From positions 42,298,878 to 42,362,877 of the forward strand of contig CM020618.1 in NCBI GenBank assembly GCA_009829735.1: a stretch of 64,000 nt of DNA, given 5' to 3'. This stretch comes from Pyropia yezoensis. Lineage: Eukaryota; Rhodophyta; Bangiophyceae; Bangiales; Bangiaceae. Within the stretch, counting starts at the first letter, position 1. Each line of letters begins with the position of its first letter. Of this stretch, positions 116 through 34,338 are shown in pieces. The notes beneath the pieces are model-generated. The model had not been told where the DNA came from, ran no database searches, and saw only the letters and a program-made list of their open reading frames with translations. The position numbers and the translations under genes were made by a program.

Positions 116-116
116 G

Positions 117-128: not shown

Positions 129-453
129 AGTTCCGACCGACCCGGTCGGCCCTGTGAGGGGGTGCGTAAACGCACGTCTCGGCGTTGGGGGCGCGACTTG
201 CTGTCCCCCCTTGAGTACGTAACGCGGATGTGGAGGCGGTCACGTTGACCGCCCCTCTCCTCAAGCTTGCCCACTCGGCAGCTTGCTCTCCTCAGTTCAC
301 ACCTCACCATCACCACCACCTTCCCTTCACCTTCCACGGGGCCGCCCCACGCTGGGGAGGCCACCCGTCAACCCACGATCCGAGTCCCCCTCAACTCGAG
401 GCGGGTCTCGTGCCGCTGTAGCCAGGGCGTCTCTCCCCAACTTGGGGAGAGTC

Positions 454-2163
454 ATGGCGACCCCGGGAGTGGAGACGGACTCTCTTGTCGAGCGTATGGA
501 GGACAGCACCTACGGTGCAGCACCCGCCGGGACTTCCGGCGGGGGCTCCGCGATCGCTCCGGGGGATGGGACTCCCGCGTCACCCGGCTTTGGGTTGACG
601 GCGGGATCTCCCCCGGAGGCGGGACAAGTTGTCCCGCGTGAGGCCTTGGGGCGGTGGTTTTACCCCGCTTGGCCTCTATATGAGGAGGGGTTGATTGTTC
701 TTCGCTGTGGCCGACTTGGCGCAGCGATGGGTCGGGTATGGGACCGCCTACGGGAGAAGTATCCCCGTAGGGTCAGGTTCCCTGCCGGCTTCAGGACGGA
801 CCAGTTTGCCTTCCTGGACGACGAGGAGGTCGAAGACATACAGCGGGCCAAGGCCATGGTGGACCGCGGGGGAACTATCCCGGGTCCCGGCGACTTGCCG
901 ACCTTTACTTGGGACGCGGTGGCAACTCGCCCCCCGTACCTTCACGAGGCCGATCCACACACTCATCACTTTGATGTGCGGATGGAGAAGGACTTCCGGC
1001 GAGGTCCCTACTTGGTGACCTCGGCTCAACTTGAGTTTCCTCAGCAGTCTGCTGCCAGTAAGGAGCAGTACTATCCGAAGAAGCCCGAGTGGTGGCCTCA
1101 AGTTGAGGTCCCCTACGGGCTCCCGGCGTTGCTGCCACGGTTGCTTGACCACTTCGGCTCCGTCATGTTGACGGCTGGCCCTGATCACCTGGTGCGGGCC
1201 ATGTTGGCCACCCAGTGGCTCCTCGAGGTCATGTCGACCTGGGTGTCTTGTGTTCAGCGGCGGGGGATGCTCTGGCATCTCCCCCTCCGGCTTATCCAAG
1301 GTTTGGAACAGCTCACCCCTCAGCTAGTTGCTGAGGGGTGCTCATCAGGACAACTCACTCTACTTGAGGAGATGCTCCGCCTCCACAAGTCTATCGAGTG
1401 GGAGAGCATTGAGCACAAGTTGCGCCGCCCCACTCGTGGGCCCAAGGACGATGGCGCACTTCGCCAGTTCGTGTGTGTCGCTCGTGAACTTCACGACGGC
1501 CGTGTGGTCCGACGAGGGGGGTTGGGCATCGGGGACTACCCGTATGCCCCGGGGGTGGATCGCCACACTGCGCCACCCCCGGACAAGCCCATAGTTATGG
1601 CTGTGCCCTCATATGATGACCATATGACTCAACCCACGGCGGGGGCCCCAAGTCGGGGTCGCAGTTACACCCGGGTCCCGCCACCTCGGCGTGCCCCTCC
1701 GCTTCCTCCTGTCCCCTTCCAGCCGCACGGGAACATCCCGATTAGCGTGGCCGTCGAGTCGTCCACCCCGGTGTCCCCCAACTTGGGGGCCACCCTCCTG
1801 ACGGTATACCCCAAGTTGGTGTTACCGCCCACGCCTCTAACCTCAGAGATGATGATCACCACGTTGGTGCGCACCATTTCCTGGTTGGCCGCGTCGACCG
1901 CAACCCTACAGAGTTCCGAGACTCCTCAACTTGAGGAGCGCGTTCGTACTGCAGTGGCGACCGCGAGTTGCGAGTCGGTGGCGGAGTTTATGACAGCCGA
2001 GTTGGCTCGCATTGGGGCTATTATGCCCCAGCCAGCCCCACTTGGGCGTGGCAAACGTCGCGCGAGCCGGGCATACTCGCCTCCTCGCCGTCGTCGCCGA
2101 CACTCGCGGCGCTCTCCCTCCGTGTCGGAAGACGAACGGTCGGCGCCACTTGCGCGACCGTGA
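454..2163 (+). CDS. E1 antisense accessory protein (between pol and 3' LTR)
   Basis: This is a 569-codon open frame running opposite to gag-pol. The ATG at 454 is chosen because the reading matches E3 closely from there, although the frame is open upstream to 283. I recognise no known domain. The N-terminus is Gly/Ala/Pro-rich. The middle (about residues 160-320) is the part shared with E2, including VQRRGMLWHLP (267-277) and HKSIEW (311-316). The C-terminus is Arg/Ser-rich, suggesting nuclear import or nucleic-acid binding. Compared with E3, the C-terminal tail is shortened by a deletion of roughly 110 bp near 2130. A hand tally of E1 against E3 gives about 17 amino-acid and about 18 silent changes, which is fewer replacements than neutrality predicts. 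Promoter and function are unknown. A strand-specific transcript starting near the 3' LTR is inferred, not seen. Confidence 0.75.
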   Translation: MATPGVETDSLVERMEDSTYGAAPAGTSGGGSAIAPGDGTPASPGFGLTAGSPPEAGQVVPREALGRWFYPAWPLYEEGLIVLRCGRLGAAMGRVWDRLREKYPRRVRFPAGFRTDQFAFLDDEEVEDIQRAKAMVDRGGTIPGPGDLPTFTWDAVATRPPYLHEADPHTHHFDVRMEKDFRRGPYLVTSAQLEFPQQSAASKEQYYPKKPEWWPQVEVPYGLPALLPRLLDHFGSVMLTAGPDHLVRAMLATQWLLEVMSTWVSCVQRRGMLWHLPLRLIQGLEQLTPQLVAEGCSSGQLTLLEEMLRLHKSIEWESIEHKLRRPTRGPKDDGALRQFVCVARELHDGRVVRRGGLGIGDYPYAPGVDRHTAPPPDKPIVMAVPSYDDHMTQPTAGAPSRGRSYTRVPPPRRAPPLPPVPFQPHGNIPISVAVESSTPVSPNLGATLLTVYPKLVLPPTPLTSEMMITTLVRTISWLAASTATLQSSETPQLEERVRTAVATASCESVAEFMTAELARIGAIMPQPAPLGRGKRRASRAYSPPRRRRRHSRRSPSVSEDERSAPLARP

Positions 2164-2408: not shown

Positions 2409-5400
2409 TCACGTTGAGGGTGGGCTGTTAGGGTCTATCTCATTCCGGGCACAGTACGCCCGGACCTTCTCAGCGGGAAGGTCCTCCACATACTCCCACG
2501 TATCATCCTTGGCTTTGTAGCCAAACCAACGCACCCTCAACATGAGGCGGTCAGTGTCTTCATCCCATCCGTGGTCGATGAACTTATCGAACACGTACTC
2601 CTGCGGGCCCTGTTTGGCCACAGGCAGTGAGGGGAGGCGCCACGCTTCCAAAGCACGCGCCCAAGCTGGGTCGCCTGCAGGCGGTGGTGCAACTTTGACC
2701 ACGTCCTGTCCGTTCACTGTGCGGACTCCATCGTCACTTTCGATGGTGAAGCGCCGCCCATCAGTACGAAGGACCTGGTACGGCCCCTTCGTCTGGAATA
2801 CCAACTTACCCCCAGTTGGGGTGTGTGAGTGTACCAGCACCCAGTCACCCTGCTCGGGGACATGCTTGGCTTTGCGCACCTTTTTGTCAAAGGTACGCTT
2901 GTAGCGCTTTTGTGCTTTGTCCATCTCAGCCCTGACTTTAGGGATGAGGTTTTCAAGCCTAGCAGCGAACTCCGCCTTACTCTCAGTAGGAGTAGGCGTA
3001 CTGCCACCATCCTCCCTAGTTGGGAGCGACCGCCGCACAGCGATAGACCGCACGCGACGGGGGGTCACAAAAGCGAGGGGTACTTCCCCAGTAGATGAGT
3101 GAACCTGCGAATTGTAGGCAGTAGTAAGAATAGAAATGTATTGGTCCCACGTCTTCACGTGCTCACTCACATAGTGGCGCAGCTGCCTAACAATAGTTTT
3201 GTTGAAGCGCTCCACCTGCCCAATAGTTTGTGGGTGGTAGGGGGTGGCATAGTTTGCCTTAACCCCCAACATATCCAGCACTCCCTGAAACAGTACAGAC
3301 GCAAATTGCGGTCCATTGTCTGATAGTGTACTATCCGGGATGCCATACGCGGCAACCCAGTGATCTAGGAAGGCTGACACGACCGACATGGCCGTGATCT
3401 CTGCCAGTGGGATCGCTCACGTAAGTTTCGTGAAGCGGTCACAGATGACCAGGAGGTACTGGTTGCCCTCCTCGGTCACTGGCAGGGGCCCAAGGATGTC
3501 CATCGCCAACGCGGCGAAGGGCTCCTTGGCCGGGAATAATAGCATAGCCGTACTAGGCCGCCGTTCCATCAGACGGTTCTGTGCACAACTTGTGCAGGCA
3601 GCCACCCAACTGTAGATGTCCACCACCATGGACGGCCAGTAGTACCTGGTCCTCAGGGTCTGGTACAGTTTACTAGACCCCAGGTGTCCACCCGTGGGAG
3701 CGATGTGCTCCCTCTCAAGGATACTGCCCTTGAGGGATGCGGGGACGACAAGTTGTTCTGTCCCCTGGAATACCCCCCTCCTCATGAGGAGGCCATCGTC
3801 TCCCAGAAAGAAACGCGTCTCCACCACTGTATCCAGTGTATCCCTCTGCGACTTGCAGAAGGGATCCTCGGCCTGGGCCTTCACCACCTCGTCCAGGGAC
3901 AGGGGCAAGTACTTCTTGTTCCCTGGCGCCTCGGGGTTCAACGCCTGACCCGAGCGCGTGACTACCCCCACGATGGGGATGTCCTCATCGACTGGGTTAG
4001 TGTCCAGCCCCTCGGTAGGTACCCGAGAGAGGCCGTCGGCAAGGGCATGTTGCCTGCCAGGTCGGTACTCAATATCAAAGTTGAAGGGTGCCAGTCGCAC
4101 CCTCCACCGATTGAGACGAGTGTTCGTAAAGTCCGTCTTAAAGATGAACTGCAACGCGCGGTGGTCACAGCGGATAAGGAACTTCTCACCCTCTAGGTAG
4201 TGACGAAGTGACGTCACCGCCCACACCACTGCGAGTCCTTCCAACTCGGTGACTCCGTAGCTCTTCTCGGCCGAGTTCAGCCCCTTGCTGAAGTATCCCA
4301 CCGGCAAGTACTCCTTGTCCGGCTGCTGCTGAAGCAACACACAACCAAGTTGGTCGTAGCTAGCGTCCACATCCAGGATGTAGTGGCCTCCCAACCTGGG
4401 AATAGCCAAGATGGGGGGCTTCAGCAGAAGGTCCCGAAGAGTCTCAAAGGATTCCTGCTCCACCCGACTTGGGGGAGGCAGGTTCTTCGGTAGCGTTGAG
4501 CTCACTAGCTCATTCAACGGCTTCGCCACCTTGGCGAAGCCCTTTGTGAAGCGTCGGTACACGTTACACATCCCGAGGAAGCTCCTCATCTGGGTCTGGG
4601 TCCGCGGGTACTGAGCCTTACGGATGGCCCTCAAGTTTTTCTCGTTGACACTGAGACGCCCCGGACGGACAACATGTCCCAACTATTCCACCTCTTGAGT
4701 GAAGAGGTGACACTTACTCGCCTTCAGTGACACACCGGCGTCAGCAAGTAGCTTGAACACCTGGCCAAGATGGCCAATGTGTTCCTCCGGACTTCGGGAG
4801 AACACAATGATATCGTCTAGGTACACGAGACAGATCTGCCACCGTACTCCGGCCAGAATCATGTCCATAGCGCGCTGGAAAGTTGCCGGCGCGTTACACA
4901 GGCCAAACGGTAGACGCTTGCACTGGTAGGTACCACAGTGACAGGTAAAGGTAGTTTTTTGCCTGTCTTCCGGGGCAATGGGAATTTGCCAGTACCCCGC
5001 GTTACAGTCCAGGGTAGAGAACACGTTCGCCTCCCCCAGAGAGTCCAGACAGTCGTCCATCCTAGGTAGGGGATAACTGTCCTTCACCGTGCTCTCGTTG
5101 AGCTTACGGTAGTCGATACAGAACCGGGGGGTCCCATCAACTTTGGGGACGATAACCACCGGACTCGCCCACTCGGCGTTGCTGGCCTCGATCACATCGA
5201 GGGCCTCCATGCGAGCAACTTGCTCCTTAACGAGGGCCCTTGAACGGGGTCCACCCCTATACGGTTGTTGGCATATAGGGGGTGCACCGGGCTTCAACTC
5301 AATCCGGTGTTGGGTGTCTCTCATGAGTCCCAATTGACCATCCCACAACTTGTGATATTGGTGCAAGGGGCGTTCAACTTGAACCCTCAACCCGGGTGGG

Positions 5401-6392
5401 ACACCCTCCATGTTCACATGCGGCCGAGAAGAGGCGGCCGACTTGGCTTGATGCTTCTCCTTTCCGGACTTCGGGTCGCTACTTGCGCCCGCGTTGAGGG
5501 TGACCGCTACTACCGGTCCCTCGTGTTGGTCGATATAGCCGAACTTGGCTCCCGACTTGAAGTACTGGGGCGACGAGCTCAGGTTCATCACCTGGATCCT
5601 CCACGGGACTCCGGCTTTGGAGTCCATCGTGCCAAGGGCAACATGCACTTGGTGCTTGCGAGCAAGACGGGGGTAAGGGTGCACCAACCCGTTCCCCGTA
5701 TAATCAGTTACAACATCAACGTGCGCCACCGAGTTGGGGGGCAACGTGACTTTACGGGCTAAGCGCAGGGTAGCAGGAAACCCTTCCCTCACAGAGCAAA
5801 CAGGATTCGACTGTGAGACTGTCACAGGAGCCACAGACTTTCCCTTACCAAGGATGGGGATAGTCTCCCCATTCATCAACTTGACCCAGTACTCAGGGCC
5901 ACAAATCAAAGGCACTTGTGTTACGACATAAGGGGTACCCAGAAGCAGGGGTACCGATATATTTTCAACTACTCCATAGGTCACGTCGACTTCATGGGTC
6001 TCCAACCTAGTTGGTAGGGTCACGGCACCAACGATGGGAAGTACCCCACCATTGATATCGATCAGATGGTCAGCTTTAGACTTCCAGCGTTGGAGCTTCA
6101 CCTCCTTTGGTAACAGCGACTTGCGTATCAAGGAGGCTCCTGACCCGGTATCAAGTACGATAAGGGCACAACAGGCGCGGCCGGGGGCAAGTTGCACCCG
6201 TCCAGCCACCTGGAAGTTCTCACCCGTCAGCACCGCGATGACCTGACGTGGGTTTACGTTCTTGGGGAGTCCTACCCGAGGTGGGCGGACTCCCTTAGGT
6301 CGCCGCAGTATCCGGCACGGTTGATTCGTCCTCTTGGCCCACTTGGCCGAGGCTGCCGTTGTGAGCTTCGGACGGCCAGCCCCAACGGTCAT
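2409..6392 (-). pseudogene. pol: E1 pol: protease, RT, RNase H, integrase, chromodomain; two nonsense mutations
   Basis: One minus-strand frame of about 1,328 codons, entered from gag by -1 frameshift. Domains in order: aspartic protease with DTGSGA (residues 81-86); reverse transcriptase with FCIDYRKLN and the catalytic YLDD box (524-527); RNase H with a DVDAS motif; integrase with an H-H-C-C zinc-binding region, SDNGPQF and a QVERFN box; and a C-terminal chromodomain with RVRWFGY and DDTWE (about 2430-2600). The chromodomain marks a chromovirus, whose integration is usually steered to marked chromatin. TAG at 4683-4685 falls where Tyr is expected in VEYLGH. TGA at 3417-3419 replaces an Arg codon that is intact in E3 (CGA to TGA). 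The copy cannot make full Pol unless the stops are read through. Confidence 0.92.
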
Positions 6393-8335
6393 TCGTTTCC
6401 CGCCGACTTGGCGTCCGAATCTGAGGACGAAGGGGAAGACGACGAGTCCGAGGACGACGTGTCCGCCCCCTTCGTCGGGGGTGTGGCGACCGCCACCACC
6501 GGACGAGACCCACCACCGCGGCGTGAACGTACTTCGTTCGTAGCCGACTTCTTACTCGCATTCCTAACAAGTTGTTGGATGCGTTTACTCAACTTGGGGC
6601 AATCATATGCCCAGTGTCCATCGGAGTTGCAGTTCCAACACCGATTGTCAGTTCCCGGAGGGGTCTTCCCAACTGGGGAAGACGAGGAGATACCCTGGGA
6701 AGTTCCCACGGCAGCAACCACCCTCTCCTTGCGGATTCGGCGTGCCTCTCTCGACTTTCTGGCCTGGCGCGCCTCCTCCCGCTCCTTGGCCAACTCGGCT
6801 TGACGCTCCTGGCGTTGTTCCTCCCGCAACTTGCGGTAGGCCTCACCTCTGCGTTAGGCGAACCTGGCCAACTCGGCCAGGGTCGCCCGGGCAGTGTTAT
6901 GCTCCCGGGTCTCCATCCGGACTGACCAATGGAGTCCCTCCACAAACCGACTCTTCACCACAGCTTGTGGATGAAGAAACCCACAAAGATTGTTGAGCTT
7001 ACGGACTCGCTCCGCAAAGGACAACTCGTCCTCCGCCTCTTCCTGATGGGCTTGCGTAAACTCCTCGACTTGAGAAGCCAACGCCGCTTCATCAACCATG
7101 GCCCTCAACAACCAGTTGACGAGCTCCAAATAGGACGTCACCTCACCAGCGCCTCCACTTGAGGAGCTGGGCATGACGGACATAAGTTCTGTCCGCAGGT
7201 CGCCCTTCGTAAACTCCTGTAGCATATAGAAAGCCATGCCTTCACTTATGGCATTGTCGTCACAGGCTTTTGTGAAACGACGTAGGAACTCAAAGACACG
7301 GAGGGGGGGAGTTCCATCCCACTCCGCCTTGTGCCCAAAAGAATGAAGTGCATTCTTCTTGGCACGGCCCATGGCTCGGGCCTGGTCAGGACCATACGCC
7401 ACCGACTTGTTGTGGAGGGCGTAGGTCTCACAGTCAAAGATCCTCTGGTAGACCGGGTTGGCTACCTGGATCTTGGGCGGTACCTCACGTTGAGGGAACA
7501 GCCGCTGTGGCACTGGGGTAAGTTGACCCTCAGTGCCCATAGTCTGGCGCGGCGCGCTTGTTGTAGCCGCCGGCGTTTCCGGGGGAAACTCCCCCGTAAA
7601 GGGCGTATGCCCCACCCAGTATGGTGTGGCTCCCTCGTTGGGAGTCACAGGTGTCGCCCACAGTTCGGGGCGACCCGAGGTAGGCATCAAGAGGGATTCC
7701 CCCTGCGCCTGCGGGCTCGAAAGCCCCGATCCGGCTCGGACATTAAGGCCATCTGGCAAACTCGCCACAATCTGATTCAGAATAGTATTCGTCATCGTGA
7801 CCACCAGGTCCGGCAAAGTCTGCCGCAACACATTGGTCGCCTCCTGACGGACAGTTTCCGCAAGGAGTGGATTGACGACTCTAGTTGAGTCTCGGTCCGC
7901 CTCCGGGAGTCCACCTGAGGGGTAACCACGTTCCTCAGGGGTCTCAACCGGGGGCATGGGCGCGAGCCCGTCGCCGACCAACGGAGGTCCGCCGTCCTCC
8001 GAAAGCCTAGTTGGCGACGGCTCCAAGCCAAAGTTGGCTCCAACCCGAGTGGAACCCGCGGGGACAGTCCTCACCCCTTGGGACGTTCCCGTTGAGTATA
8101 CCACACGGTGGCCAGACTTCGGCCCACCCACATCAGAAGTGTCACCCGAGTGAACTCCCGACTGAGTCGGGGTGGCCTGTTGCCCGCCCGCACTTCCAGT
8201 CCTGCTGGCTTGAGGGACCTCTAGTCCCTCTGCGACCCCAGGTAAACCCACCTGTGTCTCACCAGTATTCAAGGGCACTAAAGTACGTGCGTCACCCGTG
8301 TACTCCCCGGACGACGGGGAGTCCGAGCTAGCCAT
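6389..8335 (-). pseudogene. gag: E1 gag (capsid and nucleocapsid) with internal stop
   Basis: The start is taken as the ATG at 8335. The reading is open slightly upstream, but from GTG. The protein has a Pro/Thr/Gly-rich N-terminus, a capsid-like helical middle and a basic Arg/Glu/Gln-rich stretch. A CCHC zinc knuckle CWNCNSDGHWAYDC (about 6660-6620) binds genomic RNA. The frame ends at TGA 6389-6391 with the residues GNE, the same last three residues as E2 Gag. A TAA at 6854-6856 interrupts it before the nucleocapsid. The frame resumes unchanged after it, so this is a point mutation. Confidence 0.88.
6395..6401 (-). promoter_or_regulatory. E1 gag-pol -1 ribosomal frameshift site GGGAAAC
   Basis: On the minus strand gag ends GCG GGA AAC GAA TGA, so G GGA AAC is a slippery heptamer in the correct phase (X XXY YYZ). 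Slipping back one base gives GGG AAA CGA and enters the pol frame exactly. Six bases downstream is a stem of CCGTTG with CAACGG (6388-6383 and 6361-6356). Its loop contains GGCTG, which could pair with CAGCC just after the stem. A spacer of 5-9 nt to a stem is usual for such sites. E2 has the same heptamer in the same place. Confidence 0.85.
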
Positions 8336-8433
8336 GTTGGCTGACGATCCGTATGACACGGTCCAAGTCCACCGTTCCTCTGAGACAGAGGGCCCCCTAC
8401 ACCCGGGTGCACCCGGAGGTAAAGTTTACCTCT

Positions 8434-8453: not shown

Positions 8454-8454
8454 A

Positions 8455-18737: not shown

Positions 18738-18819
18738 TTGAGAATAGGTCGAAGGAGTTACTCCCCCGAGGCCTCTAATCATTCGCTTTACCGGATGATA
18801 CTGACTTGCATTTGCTCCC

Positions 18820-18820
<1 letters not shown>

Positions 18821-18869
<49 letters not shown>

Positions 18870-20373: not shown

Positions 20374-21240
20374 GTGAGTACCATTGGGACACCGTTGGGG
20401 GCGGAGAGGCCGCCGCCATCCCCATCGGCAAGAGGGGGTGTTTGGTGGTGGCGGGTGGGGGGAGGGGTACGGGAGCGGGAATGGGCGGCCTTGCGCTCCT
20501 CCCCTCCCCTTCCCGCTCCAACCCATTCCCTTTCTTTTTTTTTCTTTTTTTTTTTTTCCGGATCGACCCCCCCTCCCCCGCCTGTGCACTCATCTGGATG
20601 CGGTACAGTACCCCCACACGCCGATTGAGCGGGAGCACCGCGGATTGCCCCCACGCCCGCGAGGCTGCGCGCGTCACCCGACCCCCCTATCCACCCCCCG
20701 TGCCGCCGCGTCGCGCGTCGCCGGCGCCACTAGACTGCCACCGAATCCTCTGGTGACCTTTTATTCGACCTGCAGATTGGAACACCTCCGACGACTGGAA
20801 ATATGACATGAGGAAAAGGTCCCCAGATCGGAAACGTCCCATGGCACTTCCGGGCAGCCAGATGAATTTGTGCGTCACCTCTGGGCACGCCAACGACAAG
20901 ACGTGGTACCGGAAAGGTACCTGGCAGGTTTTCTCGGTACGTCGGATCAACCCTGGAACAACCCTGAGCTGAACGTGGCAGCCACGTGCGTGATCCGCGC
21001 TCTCCCACGGCGCTGTGGCCCTCCCCCACCCTGAGCCGTCACGCACGTTCGCGGCTTGATGTCCCGCGTGGTCGGTCACCTGACCCTTCCGTCGCTTTTA
21101 TTCGCGCTCCTCCGCCATCCACCCGTCCCCTCCCGTCCCCTCCCGTACGTCCCAGACTGGGGCTGGTTCACGCCTGACGGTGTCGCAAGGTGCGAGTGTC
21201 GTCGGGTTGGGGGAGGGGCGAGACGCGGGTCCCTGCTGCC
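20374..21240. other. Intergenic, with an oligo-T/C tract
   Basis: No gene supported. 20531-20558 is nearly pure T. The last 100 bp precede the transposase-like frame. Confidence 0.4.
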
Positions 21241-23621: not shown

Positions 23622-23985
23622 TGTAGCAATATGGTTGGCCGTATTGTGACCCTAAGGTTAGGGGGGCTACTTCTAATCCTTGGCATTTCAATTTGATAGT
23701 CCGTACTGGTCACGGTATCTATAAGTTACGTATGACCGGAGGGACTTGCATCTTGGGGTGGAGGGTAGTTAGTAGTGTCTCCGAGGGTTTATAACGTGGG
23801 GGCCGGCGGCGAATCCACCGCCGGCCAAGGTAGAACAACAAACCCCTCCCATTTGGGCTCCCATTTTGGTCCCGTGGCTTGCGCTCCAAGGACAGCAACC
23901 TTGGCCTCCCGGTGACGTTGGTGCCGATCCCCCTTGGTGAGTGTTCCCTGAGAGTGGACGCGCGACGGGTTCCTATTGTGCTACA
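23622..23985 (+). repeat. E2 5' LTR, 364 bp
   Basis: Starts TGTAGCA and ends TGCTACA (7-bp inverted ends). It includes a TATAAG at 23720-23725 as a possible core promoter and a GC-rich hairpin at 23801-23826. Confidence 0.97.
23801..23826 (+). other. Hairpin in E2 LTR
   Basis: GGCCGGCGG and CCGCCGGCC are perfect 9-bp arms around an 8-nt loop CGAATCCA. It is unchanged in the 3' LTR (34154-34179). It may be a terminator, packaging or polyadenylation structure; the role is unknown. Confidence 0.75.
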
Positions 23986-23986
23986 T

Positions 23987-24005
23987 TGGTGGAGCAGCAG
24001 GGGAC
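23987..24005 (+). other. E2 primer-binding site
   Basis: TGGTGGAGCAGCAGGGGAC begins one base after the 5' LTR and is complementary to a tRNA 3' end. Identical in the inner E3 site and nearly so in E1. Confidence 0.85.
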
Positions 24006-24211
24006 GGGTTTCCGTCACCCTTGTGGCGACGCCGTCTTCGGCCCTGGCACACGGATAGGGATCCGGTCCTTTTCTTGTACTCGTGGTGTTGCGACCTGTT
24101 CGATTGTGTTGAGTTTTTTACCTTTGACTGTGACCTACTGTTACTCTTCCCAATCTACCCCCTCGCTCACTTATTCGTGGTGATTGTTACATCGGTTGAC
24201 TGATTGTGACT

Positions 24212-26395
24212 ATGTCTACCCAAGAGACGGGGAATGCTCAAGATGACGGATCGGCGTCGACGCCGACTCCGGAAGTGACTACGGGAACCGGGATCGGGAA
24301 CCCGATCAACAACATTGAGACGCCAATGCTTTCCGGTGCCGGATCGACGTTTGGCACGGCTCGGACGGCAGGAGGCGGGGGCCCGCCTCAACTGTCGTCA
24401 ACCGACCTCACTCCACCGCCTCCTTCACCAGGGGACTCCCTGATGGCATCATTGGCCCGCATCGAGGCCCGGTTTTCCGGACTCGACGCTCGCCAGGATC
24501 GGACGGAGGACGCGATGGCAGTGCTGATGTCAACACGCCACACGACGGGACCCCGTCGTGTTCCTCCCACACCGGTACGGTTCGAACCGGCCGGACTACT
24601 TTCGGAGGCCACCATGGTCAACCCCGGTGTTGCTACTCCTGGACAACCCCAGGACACGGCGGGGTATGGATCCGACTCGTCGGCTGAGTTGGAACGTAGC
24701 CATACGGAGCGCTACGCTCGGAGCACCCAGAGCGGGCTCCGCGGACATGGTCCGGCGGATACTTACGCCGAAACAGAATCGGCGATGGGGGGAAACGGTA
24801 CCGCCTCGCATTACCCCCTTGACGACGGAAGCCAGGCAACTCGGGTACCCGACGCGCCGGCGCCGGAAGTTCCAGCGTCACTGATGCAAGCGATGACAGC
24901 GCAGGTTACTGCGAGCTTACTGAAGCGGTTGGAGTCCGATGAGTTGACTCCTCAACTGGCGAAGCGACTGGATATCCAGGACGCGGACACGGAGATTGTC
25001 AACGAAGTCTTCAGGTCGGTACTGACTCCCGAACGTAATCGTTTGGAAGACCGATCCACTGCCGTATCGGAATCGATGCGTACGACCTCGCACCGAGCGA
25101 TTCGCTCTATGCAGAACCTTATGAAGGGAGTCCCTATGTTCGGGGGGCCGAACGGACGCCCGTTGGCAGTCATCGGCTTCTTGACTAGCTTCAACGCAGC
25201 CGCGGACAAGGCCCTCGTTCACGAGGGGCTGGCCCTGGAGATCCTCCCGTTCTTTGTTGATGAACGGGTGCGAGGCATTCTTCGCCAGGCATCCCCGATG
25301 CCGGGAATGAGGGTTGCGGCCACCCCCATGGATTACCGTGGGATCCTCAAGGAGCTGCTGAGCAGTTACCTCAGTGAGGACAAGTGCGAGGACCACTACC
25401 GGGCCCTGCGCGCTGCCACCGCCCAGAGCTGGGAGGATGAGGAGATAATCGGACCACGGATTCAAGAGCTCGACTACGAGCTGGGGAAGCTCCTCGGAGA
25501 GGGGGAGCTACGGGCCATCCTGTTCGCAGGAGTACCCAACTACGTGCGGATATCCGCACGGGGCGCCAATACGGCACGGACGAACTTCAGTCGACTGATG
25601 CACATGTGCAAGTCCCTAGGGGACGCCTACCGAGTGCTACACCCGGAATGTGCCTTGGCCCCGAAGCCCAAGGGTGAGGGAGGCAAGCACCATCTTACCC
25701 CGGTACCGAGGCAAGAGAAGGTGGAGCGTAAGGCTGCACCAGTACTGGTGGCAACCGAACATACCCCCACGGGCGAGGAGGAACCACTGGTTGATCAGCA
25801 GGGCCACCTGCTGTTACCGGCTACGCCGGTGATTGATGAGCAAGGTACGGTAGTGTACATCGCTCCGGCAGGGACCCAGTTCCAGGTCAGCGAGGGCACG
25901 GGACGTCGCGTCCCGTACGTACGGACTACGGGGTACTCCCCGGTGACGGGTAACCCTCACCAACCCTTGCCAACATTGGCGGTGCGCACGGAGGCACCTC
26001 CGCAGATTGCGGGCCGACCCAACCGGTTGGGGGAGTCCTTGTTCCGGTTGACCCAAGGACCCAAGGCCTACCAGGGAGCAGGCACTCGGGCGCCCGAGGG
26101 AGGCAACCGCAGCTACGGGGCTACCCCGATGCGAACTCAAGGGGGGACCGGCACGTCCGGATGTATGTTGTGTGGGGATCCCCAGCACTGGGTGTCTTCC
26201 TGCCCACTCATCCCCGAGGAGTCTCGGCCGGCAGCGGCGCAACGCAAGGCATCCACCGGGGGGTATCCCGCCAGAGCACCCGGACCCGCACCGGGTAGGC
26301 AGCCAGCTCCAGGTGGAATACTGGCCGTCGAGGAGGCACCTCCTCAGCCGGATGTCCCGGCAGACAGCACCCGGACGAGCACGGGAAACGAATAA
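24212..26395 (+). CDS. gag: E2 Gag
   Basis: 727 codons from the ATG at 24212 (the frame is open to 24206 without ATG). A Thr/Pro/Gly-rich N-terminus is followed by a capsid-like region (about residues 230-480, with MQNLMKGVPMFGG and ELDYELGKLL). A CCHC zinc knuckle CMLCGDPQHWVSSC lies near 26160-26205. The protein ends GNE at TAA 26393-26395, the same last residues as E1 Gag. It would assemble the particle and bind genomic RNA. The frame is intact. Confidence 0.9.
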   Translation: MSTQETGNAQDDGSASTPTPEVTTGTGIGNPINNIETPMLSGAGSTFGTARTAGGGGPPQLSSTDLTPPPPSPGDSLMASLARIEARFSGLDARQDRTEDAMAVLMSTRHTTGPRRVPPTPVRFEPAGLLSEATMVNPGVATPGQPQDTAGYGSDSSAELERSHTERYARSTQSGLRGHGPADTYAETESAMGGNGTASHYPLDDGSQATRVPDAPAPEVPASLMQAMTAQVTASLLKRLESDELTPQLAKRLDIQDADTEIVNEVFRSVLTPERNRLEDRSTAVSESMRTTSHRAIRSMQNLMKGVPMFGGPNGRPLAVIGFLTSFNAAADKALVHEGLALEILPFFVDERVRGILRQASPMPGMRVAATPMDYRGILKELLSSYLSEDKCEDHYRALRAATAQSWEDEEIIGPRIQELDYELGKLLGEGELRAILFAGVPNYVRISARGANTARTNFSRLMHMCKSLGDAYRVLHPECALAPKPKGEGGKHHLTPVPRQEKVERKAAPVLVATEHTPTGEEEPLVDQQGHLLLPATPVIDEQGTVVYIAPAGTQFQVSEGTGRRVPYVRTTGYSPVTGNPHQPLPTLAVRTEAPPQIAGRPNRLGESLFRLTQGPKAYQGAGTRAPEGGNRSYGATPMRTQGGTGTSGCMLCGDPQHWVSSCPLIPEESRPAAAQRKASTGGYPARAPGPAPGRQPAPGGILAVEEAPPQPDVPADSTRTSTGNE
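26383..26389 (+). promoter_or_regulatory. E2 gag-pol -1 frameshift site GGGAAAC
   Basis: Gag ends ACG GGA AAC GAA TAA, so the heptamer is in phase and four bases before the stop. Slipping -1 continues GGG AAA CGA into the open pol frame. Downstream is a strong hairpin (GGGGT…ACCCC enclosing GCTGGGG/CCCTAGC, about 26411-26443). The spacer of about 21 nt is longer than usual. The site, phase and distance to the stop equal those of E1. Confidence 0.85.
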
Positions 26396-29300
26396 GAGGA
26401 AGGACGACACGGGGTCGCTGGGGTAACCCTAGCAAGTCACCCCGGACTACCGCGGGGAAAGCCCCACGGAGAGCGCGGTTGAGCCGACGCCGCATCAACC
26501 CCCGGGCACACCTTCCGGCCCCGACGACACGGCGTCAGGGGATTGATGACCAACCACCAAGGTTGGGAGGAGAGGACGGGAAGCCCCGTCACATGGAACC
26601 AGACAAGGGCCCTGTTCAGGATGCCCGAGCTACACCGGTTATCGGTGTAGGCCACGTGCTGTTTACCTTGGAGAACTTCAAGGTATCAGCCACACTGGGG
26701 GTTGACCCCCAGTCGACCCGATCGTACTACCCTGTACTGGATACAGGGGCTGGACCCAACCTTATCCGGAAGGATACCCTCCCGGACAAGTGGCTTCCGC
26801 GAGTCAGAGTGACTCGGGGACCCACCATCAAGGACGCGAATGGTCGCCTCATTCGTACGACCGCAGCGATGTCGCTGCGGGTTACCATCGGGGAACTCAC
26901 CACGGAAGTCGACTTCCTGGTGTGTGAGACCCTATCGGTGCCCTGCATACTGGGGTGCACCTTCATCAACGTTCACGTGGATGCAATCCGGCCAGGCCGG
27001 AGGACCGTCGAGCTTCAAGAAGCCGACGGGACGAAGCGAGGACACACGGCTATCGTCAGGGACCTGACGCTACAAGGGAGCCACGTTAACGTGGCTGAGG
27101 TGTACGCAAGCGTCGAGCCGAAGACACTTCGCTTGGCCAAGCGAACTCGCTTTGAACCGTTGTCGGAGATAGTCCTCCCGGTTAACTGCGACCTCGCAGG
27201 CATCTGCAGAGTCCGGTCCAACCTGCGGACGTACAAGCGCCATGGGTTGACCATGGCCAACGGTCTCATAGACCTCCCAGCAGGAGGGTCGTCCCTCCTA
27301 GTGATGGCGAACTATCGCCGTAAGGCAGTCACCCTCCCGAAGGGGACTATCCTCGGGATTGCCGAGCTCTACGAAGGAGATATCCTTACCCCTGACAAGG
27401 AAGGTCAAGTGGAACAACTTGAGGTGCTGGCGGCCGCCGAGACCACCGAGCGACAGCAACCCGATGACGGGAAGCCTAACCCATCGGCGGCTTTGGCGGA
27501 CATGCCGCCAAAGGACCAAGAAGCACTGAAGGCCCTGGCCGAGGCTGGCCTCGACCACCCTCCCCCTTCGGTAGCCGAAGGGGTACGGCGGATGCTAAGA
27601 AAGCATGACGTCATGTGGACAGGCGGGGCCTTGGGTACCATTGGGGCAACCCAACATCGTATAGACCTGGTACCAGGCGCACGCCCCGCCCGGTCACAAC
27701 CGCACCGAGCGGGACCTATGAAACGAGAGATCGTTGATGGAGAAGTGAAGAGGATGAGCGAAGCAAAGGTGATACGACCTTCGATGTCGGAATGGGGTGC
27801 CCCAGTCGTTATCGTACCGAAGAAGGATCAAACCCCTCGGTTTTGCATCGATTATCGATGCCTCAACTTGGTTACCAAGAAAGACTCATACCCTTTACCA
27901 AGGATGGATGAATGCATTGACTCCCTGAGGGAAGCTACGGTGTTTACCACCATCGATTGCAATGCCGGATACTGGCAGATCCCAGTGGCGGACGAGGATA
28001 TCCCAAAGACGGCGTTCGTCTGTCACAGTGGAGTGTACGAGTTCCTAAGGATGCCCTTTGTCCAACGCCCCCGCTACATTCCAGCGGGCTATCGACATTA
28101 TACTGTCGGGGGTGAAGTGGCGTAACTGCCTAGTGTACCTCGATGACGTCATCGTCTTCTCGCGTAACATGGATGACCATGTGCAACATGTTGACGAGGT
28201 ACTCACCCTCTTGCGGAACGCCGGGGTAACCCTGCGTCTGAAGAAGTGCGCCTTCTTCCAACAGACTGTCGAGTATCTGGGCCACCAGATAACCCCTGGT
28301 AACCTAGGGGCACTCGAAGCCAATACCCGGGCACTCCGGGATGCCCGGTTCCCTAACAGCCAGACACAGCTCAAGAGCTTTCTGGGAATGTGCAACGTAT
28401 ACCGACGGTTCGTCAAGGACTTCGCTCGGATAGCTAAACCGTTAACGGTTCTTACGAGCAGTACCTTGCCCAAGGTACTCCAACCCCCCTCGCCTAGCGA
28501 AGAGGAGGCATTCGAGTCGCTGAAGCGAGCCCTACTATCTTCACCCGTCCTGGCGTTACCGCACAGACGGGGTACCTTCGTCATCGATGTCGATGCATGC
28601 GATACACAAGTGGGATGCACCCTGTTACAGGGAGAGACGTTGATCGGTTCCGATAACGTTATCCCGGACCTACGTCCGGTAGGGTACTTCAGCCGGACAC
28701 TCAACCCGGCTGAGCGTAACTATAGTGCCACCGAGCGTGAGTGCCTCGGGGTTATATGGGCAATGCAACTGCTCCGTCCATACCTGGAGGGCTCCAGGTT
28801 CATCGTGAGGTCCGACCACGAACCCCTACGATGGCTCCTCAACCTTGGTGACAAGGATTCCGATAGCCATGGGAGGCTAGCCCGATGGAGGCTGAAGATG
28901 GCCGAGCACTACTACCGCACCGTGTATAAGGCTGGGTCAACCCCCCACCTCGGAGACGCGTTGTCGCGACTCGACACCCCGAGCGGGGATACCCGCCCGG
29001 TGGACGAGGACATCCCGGTGGTACCGGTGTGCATGGTGGGTAACGCCACCCAAGGTATGGTTGACCATACCATGGCACACCGAGCATGCCCACTGACTCT
29101 CGCGGACTTCCGCGAGGCACAAGCCAATGACGACGACTGTAGACGCCATCGCGCTAACCTCCTGGCCGGTACGGCCGGCATCTTCTCCGAGAACGAGGAC
29201 GGACTCATATATCGACGGGCACCCGCCGATGGACGGCATCAGGTCGTGGTTCCCGTGTCCTTACGGCAGGCCGTCATGGAACGAGAACACGAGAACCCCA

Positions 29301-30565
29301 CAGCCGGACACCCGGGGGGTTCGCGCATGTTTGCAGCAATGCGAAGGTTCTTCTACTGGCCAGCAATGGCCGTCGACGTGGTCGACCACGTAAGGGGATG
29401 CCACCCCTGTGCACGTAACCGCATGAGTCTACATAGGCAGGCGTCTGCCATGAAGCTATTCCCACCCGATGGGCTCAACGAGCAAGTCGCTATCGACATA
29501 CTCGGGCCACTTCCGGTAACGGAAGAAGGGAACAGGTACATCCTAGTCATGTCAGACCGATTCACTAAGGTGTCACGAGCAGCAGCCATCCCGAATGATA
29601 CGGCATATACCATCATGAACGCAGTGGTTGACCACTGGATCAGTGCATACGGAGTCATGAAGCAACTCCTCTCCGACAACGGAGCAAACCTTACGTCAGC
29701 ATTCTGCACTAAGGTCCTGGGCATGTTCGGTATCGAACCCCGTCGGGCATCCGACTACCACCCGCGGTCCAACGGGCAAGTGGAGCGGTTCAACCGCACC
29801 ATCGTCAAGATGCTCCAATGCTACGTGGCCGAGCACACGAACACTTGGGACAGGCTCCTGTCCATACTCACCCTGGCATACAATGCCAGGCCACATCGAA
29901 GCACGAACATCGCCCCACTGGAGTGGGTCATGCCACTAGGCGTCGGTAACCTGACGCTGCCGCCAGGCAGGTGCACTTGGTATGATACACCGGAGGGCCG
30001 ACCGGCCGAACGCATCCACCTAGCTTGGTTGGCCAAGCTATCGTGGATGATTCCTAAGCTCAAGGGTGCCCTTGACAGAACACAACTTCGATACAAGAAG
30101 AACTTTGACGCCCGACAACGGGTGCGCAACGCTACCCTGATGACAGGTGACTGGGTCTACATCAGACACCAGAAGTTCCGAGGGAACAAGCTTATGCAAC
30201 CGGTCAAGGGACCGTACCAGATCTTGCACAGAGATGACCACTCTGTCATACTGCACTCCGATACGGAGATACAACGCATCAACCTCAACGATGTGACACC
30301 TGCTCCGAAGCCGGAACAGCCTCAGCCGGTACCGGCTGGGTTGCTACATGAAGCTCTTACAACCCACCGGTCAGATGACCCGGTGGGGCCGGATGGGATT
30401 CCATACCAAGTAGAGAGCGTGGTCGGACACACCGACCCGGACGTACCAGGACCCTGGTACGTCAAGGTTATGTGGGTCGGATACGACTCACCCACCTGGG
30501 AACAGGCGGCGAATATACCCCGCCAACTCCTCATGCCTTACATGAGGCGACGACGTCTACTGTAA
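26389..30565 (+). pseudogene. pol: E2 pol: protease, RT, RNase H, integrase, chromodomain; frame broken in RT
   Basis: Read in the -1 frame relative to gag. Protease has LDTGAGPN (about 26739-26762). RT has FCIDYRCLN and YLDDVIVFS (about 28136-28162). RNase H has DVDACDTQVG (about 28590). Integrase has an HHCC region, DILGPLPV, SDNGANL and QVERFN. The C-terminal chromodomain-like segment has VKVMWVGYDSPTWEQ (about 30462-30510). The reading shifts at about 28060, inside the conserved RT block LRMPFGLSNAP. Comparison with that block suggests loss of about five bases, so the upstream frame runs out at 28125. Both halves are otherwise open, so the damage is probably recent. Confidence 0.92.
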
Positions 30566-31015
30566 CAACCCAACCGACACCGACTTCGGCTGTTGGGGGG
30601 TGAGGCTTATACCTACTGAGTAGGGTGTCACATGGACTCGGCAAGACTTAGGTTCACTAAGTTGGAGCGGACTTAGGCAAACTAAGTAAGCTACTGACTT
30701 TTACAAGTTTACTTGAAGGAGATGACTAACTCCGATAATCTCAAAGTAACCTAAGGCTTACACCAAGGCAAACCTTCAGCCAGGAGGCAAGTGACGGACC
30801 AAGACGGTTGACCTTCATGAGTATTAACCAACCAGGATGGGTTGGGGGAGGCGGAAGGGAACCGAGGCAAGCCACGACTAAGTCAAACGGGGTACTCCCC
30901 AATGGCAGGCGTTGGTATCATGCAAACGCCCCAGCGGGGGATGAGTTTATACTCACTACTACCCGGCCACCCTAAGGGTTACCGGGGCCCTCTCCCTCAC
31001 AAACAATAGCACTCC
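30566..31015. other. E2 gap between converging pol and antisense gene
   Basis: 450 bp with no gene, AT-richer than the rest. It contains repeated ACTTAGG/ACTAAGT-like words. It occupies the place of the 245-bp gap in E1. Confidence 0.45.
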
Positions 31016-32860
31016 TCAGTGGGTAGACCCACTGCCCGAGGGAGGCCACTCACGCGTAAGCGCGTATAACTCCGTGCTCCACCGGCCGGCAATCTCACGA
31101 CGGTCAATCACCCGAGTTACCTCGGTGCATAGCTGGACGAGGGTGCTGCGGCCAGCCTCCACGTCCTCCAGAGCTGTCTGGAGGCGGTCAAGCACACCAC
31201 CAAAGCAACGCGCTGACCCAACCAGCGCAGCACCTGGGGGGATATCCCCCGAGCTAACAAAGAGACCCTCCCGCATTGCGCGGGCAACAAGGGCGTCAAC
31301 GCCCTCATACCAGAGACGGGGACCCCCGTCATGCATGACAGGGGCGGGAGGTGACCCTGGCGCAGCCAGAGGAGCTACAGGAGCCGACACGGCCACCACC
31401 GGAGCCGGTGGCGCCTGGTATAAGTCCCGGTAGGACCCCGCCGAAGGGGCTCCACCGTACCCCCGGCGGGGCTCCGCCCGACGACGGGACACCTCACGCT
31501 CCCCACCCGCAGAGCCCCACTCTCGGGGACGACGGCCAACCGCCGCCGGTATCGGGTTACCGAACCACGGGGCAAGGACCTGAAGAGGGTCATGGATAAC
31601 CATGGGAATACCCAGGTCAGCAACAGCCTCGGTGGACGCCCACCCATGGCAATTGGGCTCACCCGGCTGAGTACGCCGGATACGCAACGAGTGACGAGGC
31701 AAGGGGGAAGCCCCAGCCTGCGGGTCCCGGTGCGGGGGAAGGGCCAACACCCCAGCCCAGTCCACGGCATCGTGAACAGCCAGCAGGGCCTCGAACTCCC
31801 GGGCCAACCCGGTCTTGGCGGCTATCAGGTCCACGCCCAACTGCGCGATGTGCCGACGGACACCCGTCGGAAGATGTAACAGGCGCCCCTGCCGGCGGAC
31901 GGACAGCAAGAAGGAGGAAGCCTGCCCGAGGGTAACCTCAAGGGTGAAGGTACCCTGCAACCGGTGGACCGGCCGGGAGGCCGACACACTCCCGAAGTAT
32001 CGGAGACAGGAGCCGGTGTCAAACCGGAAAGCAGGGGCGGGTTCCCACCCCTCCTGCCACAGAGGCGGGCGCACGGGAGTGTATACCGGCGCACGACCGT
32101 TGCCGGTCTGCAACGCACACGTTATATCGGTGCGGAACGCATCCGCCATGACACCATGGTTGCGTCGCCAGCTAGACGCCGACTTCAACCCCGCCATAGA
32201 CGGGTACGGAGCCGTCAACGACAGATACGGGGATACCCCCGGGTAATAATCGAAGTCGGGATACCGACCGGTATCGCCCACCGTTTCCCCAAACGCAACC
32301 GGCTCCGCCGCCGCCGCAATCCCCCGAGCACTAGCCGGGTAGTCAACCTCCCGCGGCAACGCGGGGGCAATCAGGTCGCATACCCCGAAGGCGGGGTCGA
32401 GGTAGACCTCACCCCGTCCCACCCGGGTGCGCCAGAGCTGCGCATGCCGGTCGTCTGGCTGACTCAGGATCCAATGGTGTTCCACCCGCACCGCGTTCGG
32501 CTGGTTGACCAGCCGCACCAACTCCCGCTCCCAACTCGGGTCCACCCTGCCGCGCCGGGAGGTCCCTCCAGAGAGACGCGGCTGGTGGAAGTCCACCCGC
32601 ATCCGCCCATCGGACTCCATTGACTCTTGCACAGTCAGGCCTCGAACCCGAGCCACCAAGCCGGACATCGACATGGCGGGTTGACCTGCCGCCACGGCGA
32701 CGCCGCCACCCAACGGGGCAACCCGGGCAGGACCAGGAAGAATCGGGGGCGCCGGGGGATGCCCCACCGGCGCATGGGCCGTTGACGGAGGTGCACGGGG
32801 CCGAGGAGGAAGAAGAAGGGCGGGCGCCCGCCCGGAGTAGCTCCCGGAGTCCACTGCCAT
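31016..32860 (-). CDS. E2 antisense accessory protein, main part
   Basis: 614 codons from an ATG at 32860, opposite to gag-pol and between pol and the 3' LTR. There is a Pro/Ala-rich N-terminus and a 300-residue globular-looking centre. A Pro/Arg/Gly-rich linker leads to a helical C-terminus (VLDRLQTALEDVEAGRSTL). The segment VRRQGRLLHLP (321-331) to HDAVDW (363-368) aligns with E1 VQRRGMLWHLP to HKSIEW at nearly equal spacing. Weaker similarity precedes it (SPYLSLTA against GPYLVTSA). No known domain recognised. It may be read together with the upstream acidic frame, separated by one stop. Confidence 0.7.
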   Translation of the reverse strand: MAVDSGSYSGRAPALLLPPRPRAPPSTAHAPVGHPPAPPILPGPARVAPLGGGVAVAAGQPAMSMSGLVARVRGLTVQESMESDGRMRVDFHQPRLSGGTSRRGRVDPSWERELVRLVNQPNAVRVEHHWILSQPDDRHAQLWRTRVGRGEVYLDPAFGVCDLIAPALPREVDYPASARGIAAAAEPVAFGETVGDTGRYPDFDYYPGVSPYLSLTAPYPSMAGLKSASSWRRNHGVMADAFRTDITCALQTGNGRAPVYTPVRPPLWQEGWEPAPAFRFDTGSCLRYFGSVSASRPVHRLQGTFTLEVTLGQASSFLLSVRRQGRLLHLPTGVRRHIAQLGVDLIAAKTGLAREFEALLAVHDAVDWAGVLALPPHRDPQAGASPLPRHSLRIRRTQPGEPNCHGWASTEAVADLGIPMVIHDPLQVLAPWFGNPIPAAVGRRPREWGSAGGEREVSRRRAEPRRGYGGAPSAGSYRDLYQAPPAPVVAVSAPVAPLAAPGSPPAPVMHDGGPRLWYEGVDALVARAMREGLFVSSGDIPPGAALVGSARCFGGVLDRLQTALEDVEAGRSTLVQLCTEVTRVIDRREIAGRWSTELYALTREWPPSGSGSTH

Positions 32861-32872
32861 CGGGGTAGATTA

Positions 32873-33385
32873 GTCTTGACCATCACGCGTCCGCGGCACC
32901 GCGGGCAGAGCATCGCCGCCACCCGAGCCCGACGTGGGTACCACGGGGGCAGCACGGGTAGACCCGCTACCCGCCGCAGCGGACACACCAACCGCGCGGG
33001 CACCCGCGCCATCTTGACCCGCCGTACCGGCCGGGGAGCCGCCACTACCATCCGCCACGCCGGCGACACCGTCTTGAGGTAGAGCCGCGCCGGCACCGGC
33101 GACAGAGGCCATCCGGGCCGCCGGAGGAGTAGCGGTAGAGGCCACCGCTGCACGCGGTTGTCCGCCACCCGACGGAGCCGTCGTGCCGCTACACACGGAC
33201 GACAACCCGCCCGGCGCGCCTTCCGGGGCCACACGAACGGTCACCCGGTCGTCCTCGTCCTCCGACGAGCTCGCTAAGAAGCACTCGGCGGCGGTGGCAG
33301 AGACGGGAACGTCGTCCACCATCACCTCTTCCTCCTCCTCAAGCAGGAGGTCGTCCTCGCCCCCGGGTACCTGGGGGTCCGACAT
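32873..33385 (-). CDS. E2 antisense acidic N-terminal frame
   Basis: 171 codons from an ATG at 33385. It has an acidic Glu-rich start (DDLLLEEEEEVMVDD), then Ser/Gly/Ala-rich sequence. It is in the same frame as the next protein and ends at a TAA (32870-32872) only nine bases before that protein's ATG. So this is either one long protein broken by a nonsense mutation or two adjacent ORFs. E1 has a single protein here. Confidence 0.5.
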
Positions 33386-33962
33386 GGTAAAACCGGGGTA
33401 GCAGGGGCGCCCCGTGCGGAAAAGCCGAGGCCGGCTCGACCCGGTACGAGGAACGCTCGCGCGGACGAGCCAGGGAAGCGCGGGTACCCGTGCTTATAAC
33501 CACACAGCTCAGCACGAGCGATACAGCAGCGCGGGACGGCCCGCGCCAGCCGAGCTACGAGGGCGCTCCACCCAGGCACCTGGATCGGGGCCACGCCCCC
33601 CCCACACGGGGCAATCAAGGGGGGTCACCCCCAACCGCCCCCACTCAACGCGGGCAGCCCCCGCCCTCCACTCAATCGTCCATACGAGAGGGGCCCCCCT
33701 ACCACCAGACACCTGGTGGCGGATCCGCTTGCATCACCCCTCGGAAAGGGGGGTCGTGAACAAAAACCCGCATCGGGAATTTAACGGTCCGGAAAACGGA
33801 TCGTGTGTGTACCACACAAAGGGGGGCACCCCCCTCAGACAACCTCGAAAAGGGGTGCCTGTCGCGACAGGGCGCAAAGCCCCACCCGACTGGTAAACCG
33901 TCACGCGACCCACTTACATTCGGCAACCCGAATGCAACTCGACCCGAGGACGGGCCGAATCT
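33386..33962. other. E2 segment between antisense gene and 3' LTR
   Basis: About 580 bp without a supported gene. It should hold the promoter and leader of the antisense gene. C/G-runs are frequent. Confidence 0.4.
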
Positions 33963-33972
33963 AAGGGGGGGA
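33963..33972 (+). other. E2 polypurine tract
   Basis: AAGGGGGGGA ends two bases before the 3' LTR, as expected for the plus-strand primer. Confidence 0.8.
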
Positions 33973-33974
33973 TA

Positions 33975-34338
33975 TGTAGCAATATGGTTGGCCGTATTGT
34001 GACCCTAAGGTTAGGTGGGCTACTTCTAATCCTTGGCATTTCAATTTGATAGTCCGTACTGGTCACGGTATCTATAAGTTACGTATGACCAGAGGGACTT
34101 GCATCTTGGGGTGGAGGGTAGTTAGTAGTGTCTCCGAGGGCTTATAACGTGGGGGCCGGCGGCGAATCCACCGCCGGCCAAGGTAGAACAACAAACCCCT
34201 CCCATTTGGGCTTCCATCTTGGTCCCGTGGCTCGCGCTCCAAGGACAGCAACCTTGGCCTCCCGGTGACGTTGGTGCCGATCCCCCTTGGTGAGTGTTCC
34301 CTGAGAGTGGACTCGCGACGGGTTCCTATTGTGCTACA
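33975..34338 (+). repeat. E2 3' LTR, 364 bp
   Basis: Same ends and length as the 5' LTR. Seven substitutions by eye, five of them transitions. Confidence 0.97.

Follow-up and report, generated by a model that had tools for sequence, protein, structure and literature searches.

We analysed 64,000 nucleotides of the red alga Pyropia yezoensis (assembly GCA_009829735.1, contig CM020618.1, positions 42,298,878 to 42,362,877 of the forward strand), called the window below. The subject is E2, a long terminal repeat (LTR) retrotransposon at 23622-34338 that is rich in short inverted repeats (IRs), together with its relative E1. According to the part of PMC7423979 available to us, repeats make up slightly under half of this genome and are mainly LTR retrotransposons. 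E2 is a Ty3/Gypsy (Metaviridae) element, perhaps chromovirus-like, with its pol domains in the order protease, reverse transcriptase (RT), RNase H and integrase. RVT_1, RT_RNaseH, Integrase_H2C2 and rve matched above the Pfam cut-offs and the protease below: the open reading frame (ORF) at 26479-28125 gave 40.1 bits for RVT_1 and 27.0 bits for gag-asp_proteas, under the cut-off of 28.2. Chromo (PF00385) reached 15.9 bits in E2 and 23.6 bits in E1, both under the cut-off of 25.1, and the zf-CCHC_2 match of the E2 gag (E=0.011) also fell below its cut-off. The LTRs were delimited by local alignment against each other, and the flanks read as a 5-bp target-site duplication, ACTCC. In the window copy pol is split over two frames, in the overlapping ORFs 26479-28125 and 28058-30565; the other E2 copies listed mostly match over a slightly longer stretch, so unsplit pol copies may exist. 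The element is laid out as follows, strict IRs being those found in an exhaustive scan for perfect arms of at least 8 bp and spacers of at most 9 nt.

23622..23985, + strand: 5' LTR, ends TGTAGC...GCTACA
24206..26395, + strand: gag ORF, CCHC-knuckle motif at 26162; 5 strict IRs
26479..28125, + strand: protease-like part and first part of RT; 8 strict IRs
28058..30565, + strand: remaining RT, RNase H, integrase and chromodomain-like tail, by Pfam; 11 strict IRs
31016..32860, - strand: antisense ORF of 614 aa, between pol and the 3' LTR
32861..33974, no strand: hairpin-rich stretch with no ORF assigned
33975..34338, + strand: 3' LTR

Excess of inverted repeats in E2

The strict scan returned 24 IRs in gag-pol (24206-30565) and 30 over the whole element, one of them in each LTR.

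23801..23826: 5' LTR, arm 9, spacer 8
24251..24266: arm 8, spacer 0
24372..24389: arm 8, spacer 2
24540..24561: arm 10, spacer 2
25543..25560: arm 9, spacer 0
25898..25916: arm 8, spacer 3
26630..26650: arm 8, spacer 5
26694..26713: arm 9, spacer 2
26861..26880: arm 9, spacer 2
27079..27096: arm 9, spacer 0
27128..27145: arm 9, spacer 0; one T-A pair is C-G in family F9
27491..27513: arm 9, spacer 5
27563..27583: arm 9, spacer 3
27845..27861: arm 8, spacer 1
28460..28479: arm 9, spacer 2
28689..28713: arm 8, spacer 9
28782..28799: arm 8, spacer 2; one G-C pair is A-T in F9 and in one E2 copy
29054..29071: arm 8, spacer 2; core GGTTGACC
29099..29116: arm 8, spacer 2
29376..29391: arm 8, spacer 0
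29872..29890: arm 8, spacer 3
30021..30040: arm 8, spacer 4
30323..30338: arm 8, spacer 0
30363..30387: arm 8, spacer 9
30440..30463: arm 11, spacer 2
31017..31034: antisense ORF, arm 8, spacer 2
31165..31184: antisense ORF, arm 8, spacer 4
32498..32515: antisense ORF, arm 8, spacer 2; core GGTTGACC
32818..32833: antisense ORF, arm 8, spacer 0
34154..34179: 3' LTR, same as 23801-23826, arm 9, spacer 8

All 14 IRs that an initial annotation of this DNA had picked out proved perfect, and the excess it claimed for E2, similar to that of E1, was confirmed by the exhaustive scan and by protein-preserving shuffles. The 24 IRs of gag-pol compare with a mean of 1.71 and a maximum of 6 in 1000 synonymous-codon permutations within each ORF; an equal density in codon-shuffled controls, which the annotation had named as the outcome that would speak against it, was thus not seen. 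Its estimate of about two IRs per 10 kb by chance lies near the shuffle values. Over the whole of E2, dinucleotide shuffles gave 1.9 against the 30 observed. With arms of at least 6 bp and spacers of at most 9 nt, the three gag-pol ORFs held 91 IRs against 20.5 expected (33, 27 and 31 against 8.2, 5.4 and 6.9). In seven other ORFs of the window, totalling 7,662 nt, 2 IRs with 8-bp arms were found against 2.5 expected; Pfam searches of four of these ORFs gave matches in two. Windowed minimum free energy (MFE), with 40 shuffles for each z-score, gave values of -4.8 to -10.2 in all nine ORF pieces of E1 and E2 against synonymous shuffles, on both strands, and of -1.5 to +1.1 in six other window ORFs. 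The shuffles behind the excess, the family controls and the loop-axis counts treated each ORF in its own frame, and those behind the mismatch-type and complementarity-profile analyses applied one frame across E1 and E2 gag-pol ORFs of different frames.

Loop formats, strands and silent sites

E1, the sister family used for comparison, is present twice in the window, at 1-8923 and at 57764-63893; the right copy, with about 3.15 kb less internal sequence, shows a 5-bp target duplication, GCAAG. The relevant ORFs, with hairpins centred on A-S-T (A-G-T or A-C-T) counted separately from the axis counts given below, are these.

2409..8359, - strand: E1 gag-pol; 30 AST-centred pentaloop hairpins
283..2163, + strand: E1 antisense ORF of 626 aa; 12 AST-centred hairpins, from the same separate count

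The two families use different loops. Those of E2 are mostly even, of about 4 nt: the spacer is even in 55 of 76 cases in gag-pol and in 15 of 15 in the antisense ORF, even axes carry 88 hairpins against 20.6 expected, and 50 of the 66 four-base loops of gag-pol are closed by a 5'G-C3' pair. In E1 the spacers are mostly odd (21/27 and 11/12). Axes of the form A-S-T carry 39 hairpins against 2.3 expected (maximum 6 in 200 shuffles), which is 39 of the 262 AST axes of gag, pol and the antisense ORF combined, and the remaining odd axes show little excess (52 against 41.5). Around AST axes complementarity starts at 0.33 (offset 2), continues with 0.46, 0.43, 0.50 and 0.41, and reaches background by about offset 13; around other axes it is flat at 0.25-0.27 from offset 2 on. 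The E1 format is a pentaloop N-A-S-T-N on a stem that can reach about nine pairs, and its core is its own reverse complement. In two further families described below, loops tend to be wider (F3) or narrower (F4). A loop motif recurring along the element, as is typical of dispersed packaging signals, was found in E1 and, in its own form, in E2; none was clear in F3 and F4.

The loop centres of E2 differ between its two halves. In the leader, gag and pol, TG is favoured as loop centre (14/369, against 3/453 for CA); in 30566-33974 the bias is reversed, with 1/111 for TG and 10/262 for CA. It tracks the coding direction on each side, including that of the antisense ORF. At another hairpin threshold the flip has p=0.0006 among hits, a value that ignores regional TG and CA frequencies. 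The antisense ORF (31016-32860) contains 20 even-axis hairpins against 4.2 in dinucleotide shuffles, and the stretch 32861-33974 contains 14 against 2.9 expected. Between the opposing ORFs, 30566-31015 holds 1 against 0.57 expected and lies as if between two decorated transcripts.

An antisense ORF between pol and the 3' side is carried by E1, E2 and F3, and the E1/E2 pair is conserved: the two proteins are homologous (E=1e-9), 232 alignment positions showing 25% identity. Neither has a Pfam match, and only nine homologues of the E2 protein were found in the protein database, seven of them named, all from Pyropia vietnamensis. The F3 antisense ORF, of 995 aa, lies downstream of pol (L049:1551-4535, - strand); no similarity to the E1 and E2 antisense ORFs and no Pfam match were detected for it. 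The antisense-ORF protein was also weighed as a required partner of the hairpins; F4 bears hairpins, and the stretch read downstream of it is taken up by a neighbouring E2 copy.

Across 26 non-reference E2 copies, the 262 third-codon-position sites that fall in stems had a diversity of 0.051; the 36 in loops had 0.104, and those elsewhere 0.090. Stem diversity this low did not occur in any of 1000 frame-preserving shifts. Of 15 pair-cells changed on both sides, 13 remained Watson-Crick, 10 of these 13 being the same change at one pair; counted by distinct pair, four were Watson-Crick and two were not. Between E2 and F9, which are 88.7% identical in nucleotides, third-position divergence was 0.131 in stems (130 sites) and 0.247 outside (584 sites), and both double substitutions in stems were compensatory Watson-Crick changes. 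The copies were the best-scoring ones, namely 30 loci of 40 scored out of 1215 candidates for E2 and 14 of 40 out of 1427 for E1, and the sample is biased for that reason. Three of 29 E2 copies (L012, L023, L028) and two of 13 E1 copies (L058, L063), with many differences and gaps, were left out; these are probably flank or rearrangement. That selection on synonymous positions maintains the hairpins of the coding parts is well supported.

Distribution among retrotransposon families

The pol proteins of E1 and E2 are 46% identical over 436 aligned positions. Other families of the genome were compared against 20 shuffles each, using the longest ORF per locus, whether or not in the pol frame. No IR excess was seen in six sampled Copia loci (L031-L036); L031-L033 have ORFs of the same length and composition, and the six therefore represent fewer independent elements. 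Among distant Gypsy loci (L037-L042, L045, L046) there was none, or a slight one in L037-L042, where IRs with arms of at least 6 and spacers of at most 5 summed to 27 against 18.0 and folding z went down to -3.1. L037-L042 are probably copies of one family; L040, L045 and L046, the three loci measured, are 29% identical to E2. The folding signal of the Copia and distant Gypsy controls was weak, with z down to -3.4. An excess was found in F3 (L043; 20 against 7.4 with 6-bp arms, 7 against 0.85 with 8-bp arms), in the three F4 loci with 6-bp arms (L044, 30 against 5.0; L047, 27 against 6.6; L048, 20 against 2.0) and in F9, the sister of E2 (L070; 14 against 3.0). The nearer Gypsy families F5, F6, F7 and F8 (L067, L068, L069, L071) had none, with 3, 2, 0 and 2 IRs against 4.1, 4.0, 3.6 and 2.3. 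The F8 and F9 loci are fragmentary; their ORFs measure 469 and 521 aa.

In a maximum-likelihood tree of pol pieces, six hairpin rows grouped together against six hairpin-free rows with support of 95/99, and the trait changed once on the tree in 98% of 200 bootstrap trees. Among the families sampled, the hairpin carriers E1, E2, F9, F3 and F4 form one Ty3/Gypsy clade in which the hairpins probably arose once. Six proteins from the database, whose hairpin status is unknown, also fall inside the clade; one sits at zero distance from the E1 branch point. E1 and E2, which the initial annotation had treated as independent, are therefore not independent instances, and its suggestion of a general property of replication does not hold, the other LTR elements sampled in the genome having no excess or nearly none. 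A search for the clade motif GMCNVYRRF in several codon variants, excluding the codons of E1, E2 and F4, found 511 places in the genome; the clade is therefore large and diverse here. No relatives were found among the viral contigs searched.

Elsewhere in the window, two fragments of eukaryotic large-subunit rRNA lie at 18670-18977 (- strand), in a very GC-rich 2-kb bin (75%), and repeat arrays, with units mainly of 9 nt, lie at 47524-48721 and beyond, inside long open frames. The ORF of 619 aa at 21190-23049 (+ strand) has no Pfam match and no hairpin excess; inspection by eye suggests a CACTA-type transposon protein.

A putative family tag read by an element-encoded protein

We propose that these are selected transcript hairpins that serve as a family tag, which an RNA-binding protein encoded by the element would read for packaging or handling, and we put the probability of this reading at roughly one half. 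The stems measure about 6-9 bp and the small loop is family-specific; placed along nearly the whole element in coding and non-coding parts, the hairpins would act within the element's own RNA. Complementarity rather than sequence is selected, and therefore it is a folded strand that would be read; the strand-specific loops of E2, if real, would make this RNA. A protein encoded by the element, perhaps through the CCHC zinc knuckle of Gag, would recognise the hairpins. Many weak sites could jointly label transcripts as the element's own, to be packaged or otherwise handled preferentially in cis, much as dispersed packaging signals work. Since formats differ among families in one nucleus, we infer an element-encoded partner and not a host factor. 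Both this partner and the strand are inferred, and protein binding is putative. A scan of the window for CCHC knuckles found one per element, in gag of E2 (26162) and at 6640 (- strand) in E1, where it falls between the called gag and pol ORFs; Gag is the simplest candidate. The formats of sister families may have diverged through co-evolution of protein and loop. Where the decoration extends into the antisense ORF, both transcripts might be handled by the same factor, or the tag might also serve export, stability or translation.

The shared structural need raised by the initial annotation gains support from the low silent variation in E2 stems, the folding z-scores and the loop motif. It had named escape from silencing and packaging as examples. 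Packaging is the likelier of the two, as yet unproven, and silencing escape is weakened because a target in the host should hold every family to a single format, which is not what is seen.

Several findings qualify the observation or weigh against the tag reading. The contrast with surrounding sequence is not clean: outside E1 and E2 the window has 24 IRs with 8-bp arms against 12.1 expected (10 against 3.7 and 14 against 8.4), with little excess for 6-bp arms (117 against 98.3; 40 against 34.5 and 77 against 63.8). GC-rich bins (18-20 kb and 48-54 kb) account for much of the 8-bp-arm excess. The even preference of E2 is not exclusive, odd axes being likewise doubled (33 against 16.7, null maximum 32). 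A loop motif was sought in F3 and F4 and none was clear, and F4 has few 8-bp arms, one per locus in its three loci, despite its many 6-bp ones. Stem conservation in E1 is weak when taken alone (0.0165 against 0.0334, with 74 of 1000 shifts as low). Regular spacing of the hairpins was considered and rejected, the coefficient of variation of the gaps being 0.77-0.78, about what random placement with exclusion gives by rough reckoning. As to the strand, stem mismatches are equally G-U (18) and A-C (19), hairpins are equally stable in sense and antisense, and folding z is alike on either strand. Among copies, A-C exceeds G-U, in E2 by 212 to 150 cells and 65 to 52 pairs and in E1 by 14 to 3 cells, which is the opposite of what wobble in sense RNA would lead one to expect. 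With no wobble or energy bias, the sense-RNA claim therefore draws solely on the orientation of the E2 loops. The TG/CA contrast behind it was chosen post hoc, and the flip partly reflects regional TG and CA frequency; at the other hairpin threshold it gave p=0.008 in gag-pol and a non-significant p=0.25 in the 3' region alone. Moreover, the motif need not flip if only gag-pol-sense RNA is packaged.

A first alternative is genome-scale ordered RNA structure with no specific partner, in which hairpins protect the transcript, or hold sense and antisense transcripts apart, and so avoid dicing, innate sensing or decay. Such structure is marked by an excess of folding energy over codon-preserving shuffles along the whole length, and E1 and E2 are alike in this, with the folding energy of their ORF pieces lying below that of sequence-matched shuffles throughout. 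It would also account for hairpins in coding and non-coding parts on both strands, and the antisense ORF downstream of pol in E1, E2 and F3 makes opposing transcripts plausible. Yet shielding needs neither a fixed loop sequence nor a family-specific loop size, and other sampled families of the same genome are without hairpin structure or nearly so. The arrays of E1 and E2 differ from ordered structure in consisting of short, perfect hairpins whose loops favour a certain parity and motif, confined to one retrotransposon clade and absent from its nearest sampled relatives, and we regard this explanation as unlikely.

Quite unlikely, in our view, is a mutational origin, in which the RT of the clade or host repair switches template at imperfect IRs, perfects them and favours certain centres. 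Clade specificity could then follow the RT, and low stem variation could reflect continual correction, with double changes mostly restoring pairing. Copying by fold-back would pair up to the turn, however, and E1 pairs little at the outer loop position and more at offset 3. Non-coding parts of E2 are on the whole not richer, with 22 hairpins in about 2.6 kb against 89 in 8.1 kb of coding sequence, and the E2 loop bias flips, on the post hoc contrast, between gag-pol and the 3' region although RT copies one strand throughout. About as unlikely are palindromic double-stranded DNA sites or cruciforms bound by integrase or another dimeric protein. They would fit the E1 core, self-reverse-complementary together with its closing pair, and the lack of wobble or energy bias on the strands, but arm sequences vary from site to site so that complementarity and not sequence is kept, and the centre bias of E2 looks strand-specific. 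The related idea that loop parity mirrors the length of the integrase target duplication was rejected: the duplications of E1 and E2 are both 5 bp, and axis parity is not target-site geometry. Chance, composition or a codon-usage artefact can be set aside, since none of the controls (synonymous-codon, dinucleotide, other-family) reproduces the excess, for all the GC-richness of host sequence and the mild surplus of 8-bp arms in the window beyond the two elements.

For the proposed family tag, the closest known mechanism would appear to be the dispersed packaging signals of single-stranded RNA viruses such as MS2, which, in the available part of PMC6281560, are likewise many stem-loops through a coding genome with a common loop feature and varied stems. 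The present case differs from that account in that the carriers are LTR retrotransposons, the protein contact is putative, sister formats differ and the hairpins reach into an antisense ORF. Genomic RNA of Ty3 and Ty1, as far as the accounts available to us go, is also LTR retrotransposon RNA with structured coding regions, for whose handling Gag or nucleocapsid is needed; the well-folded core of Ty3 RNA is about 19% (PMC11381356; PMC4974528), against dozens of similar hairpins here, whose loop is specific to the family. The plant elements Grande, RIRE2 and Retand share with E1 and E2 the position and orientation of an extra ORF, of unknown function (PMC7264820). The likeness rests on that position and orientation, and the available part of PMC7264820 makes no mention of a hairpin array. 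A literature search, mostly of titles and listings, turned up nothing that we recognised as an array of this kind in LTR retrotransposons.

It is tempting to speculate, though we hold this wider picture to be doubtful, that one lineage invented an RNA self-recognition code of dozens of silent-site hairpins per element in two opposing transcripts, in which loop size and sequence serve as a family badge read by the element's own protein. Sister families in one nucleus would have diverged in this badge, each packaging or handling its own RNA only. How an LTR retrotransposon chooses its own RNA among cellular RNAs is a poorly defined problem, and the packaging sequences of these elements lack precise definition in the available part of PMC4974528. 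With hairpin families of differing format beside hairpin-free relatives, Pyropia yezoensis makes the idea of dispersed signals testable, as a natural experiment in the origin and divergence of such a code. The results also suggest strong structural selection on transposon silent sites, which would distort dating by synonymous divergence.

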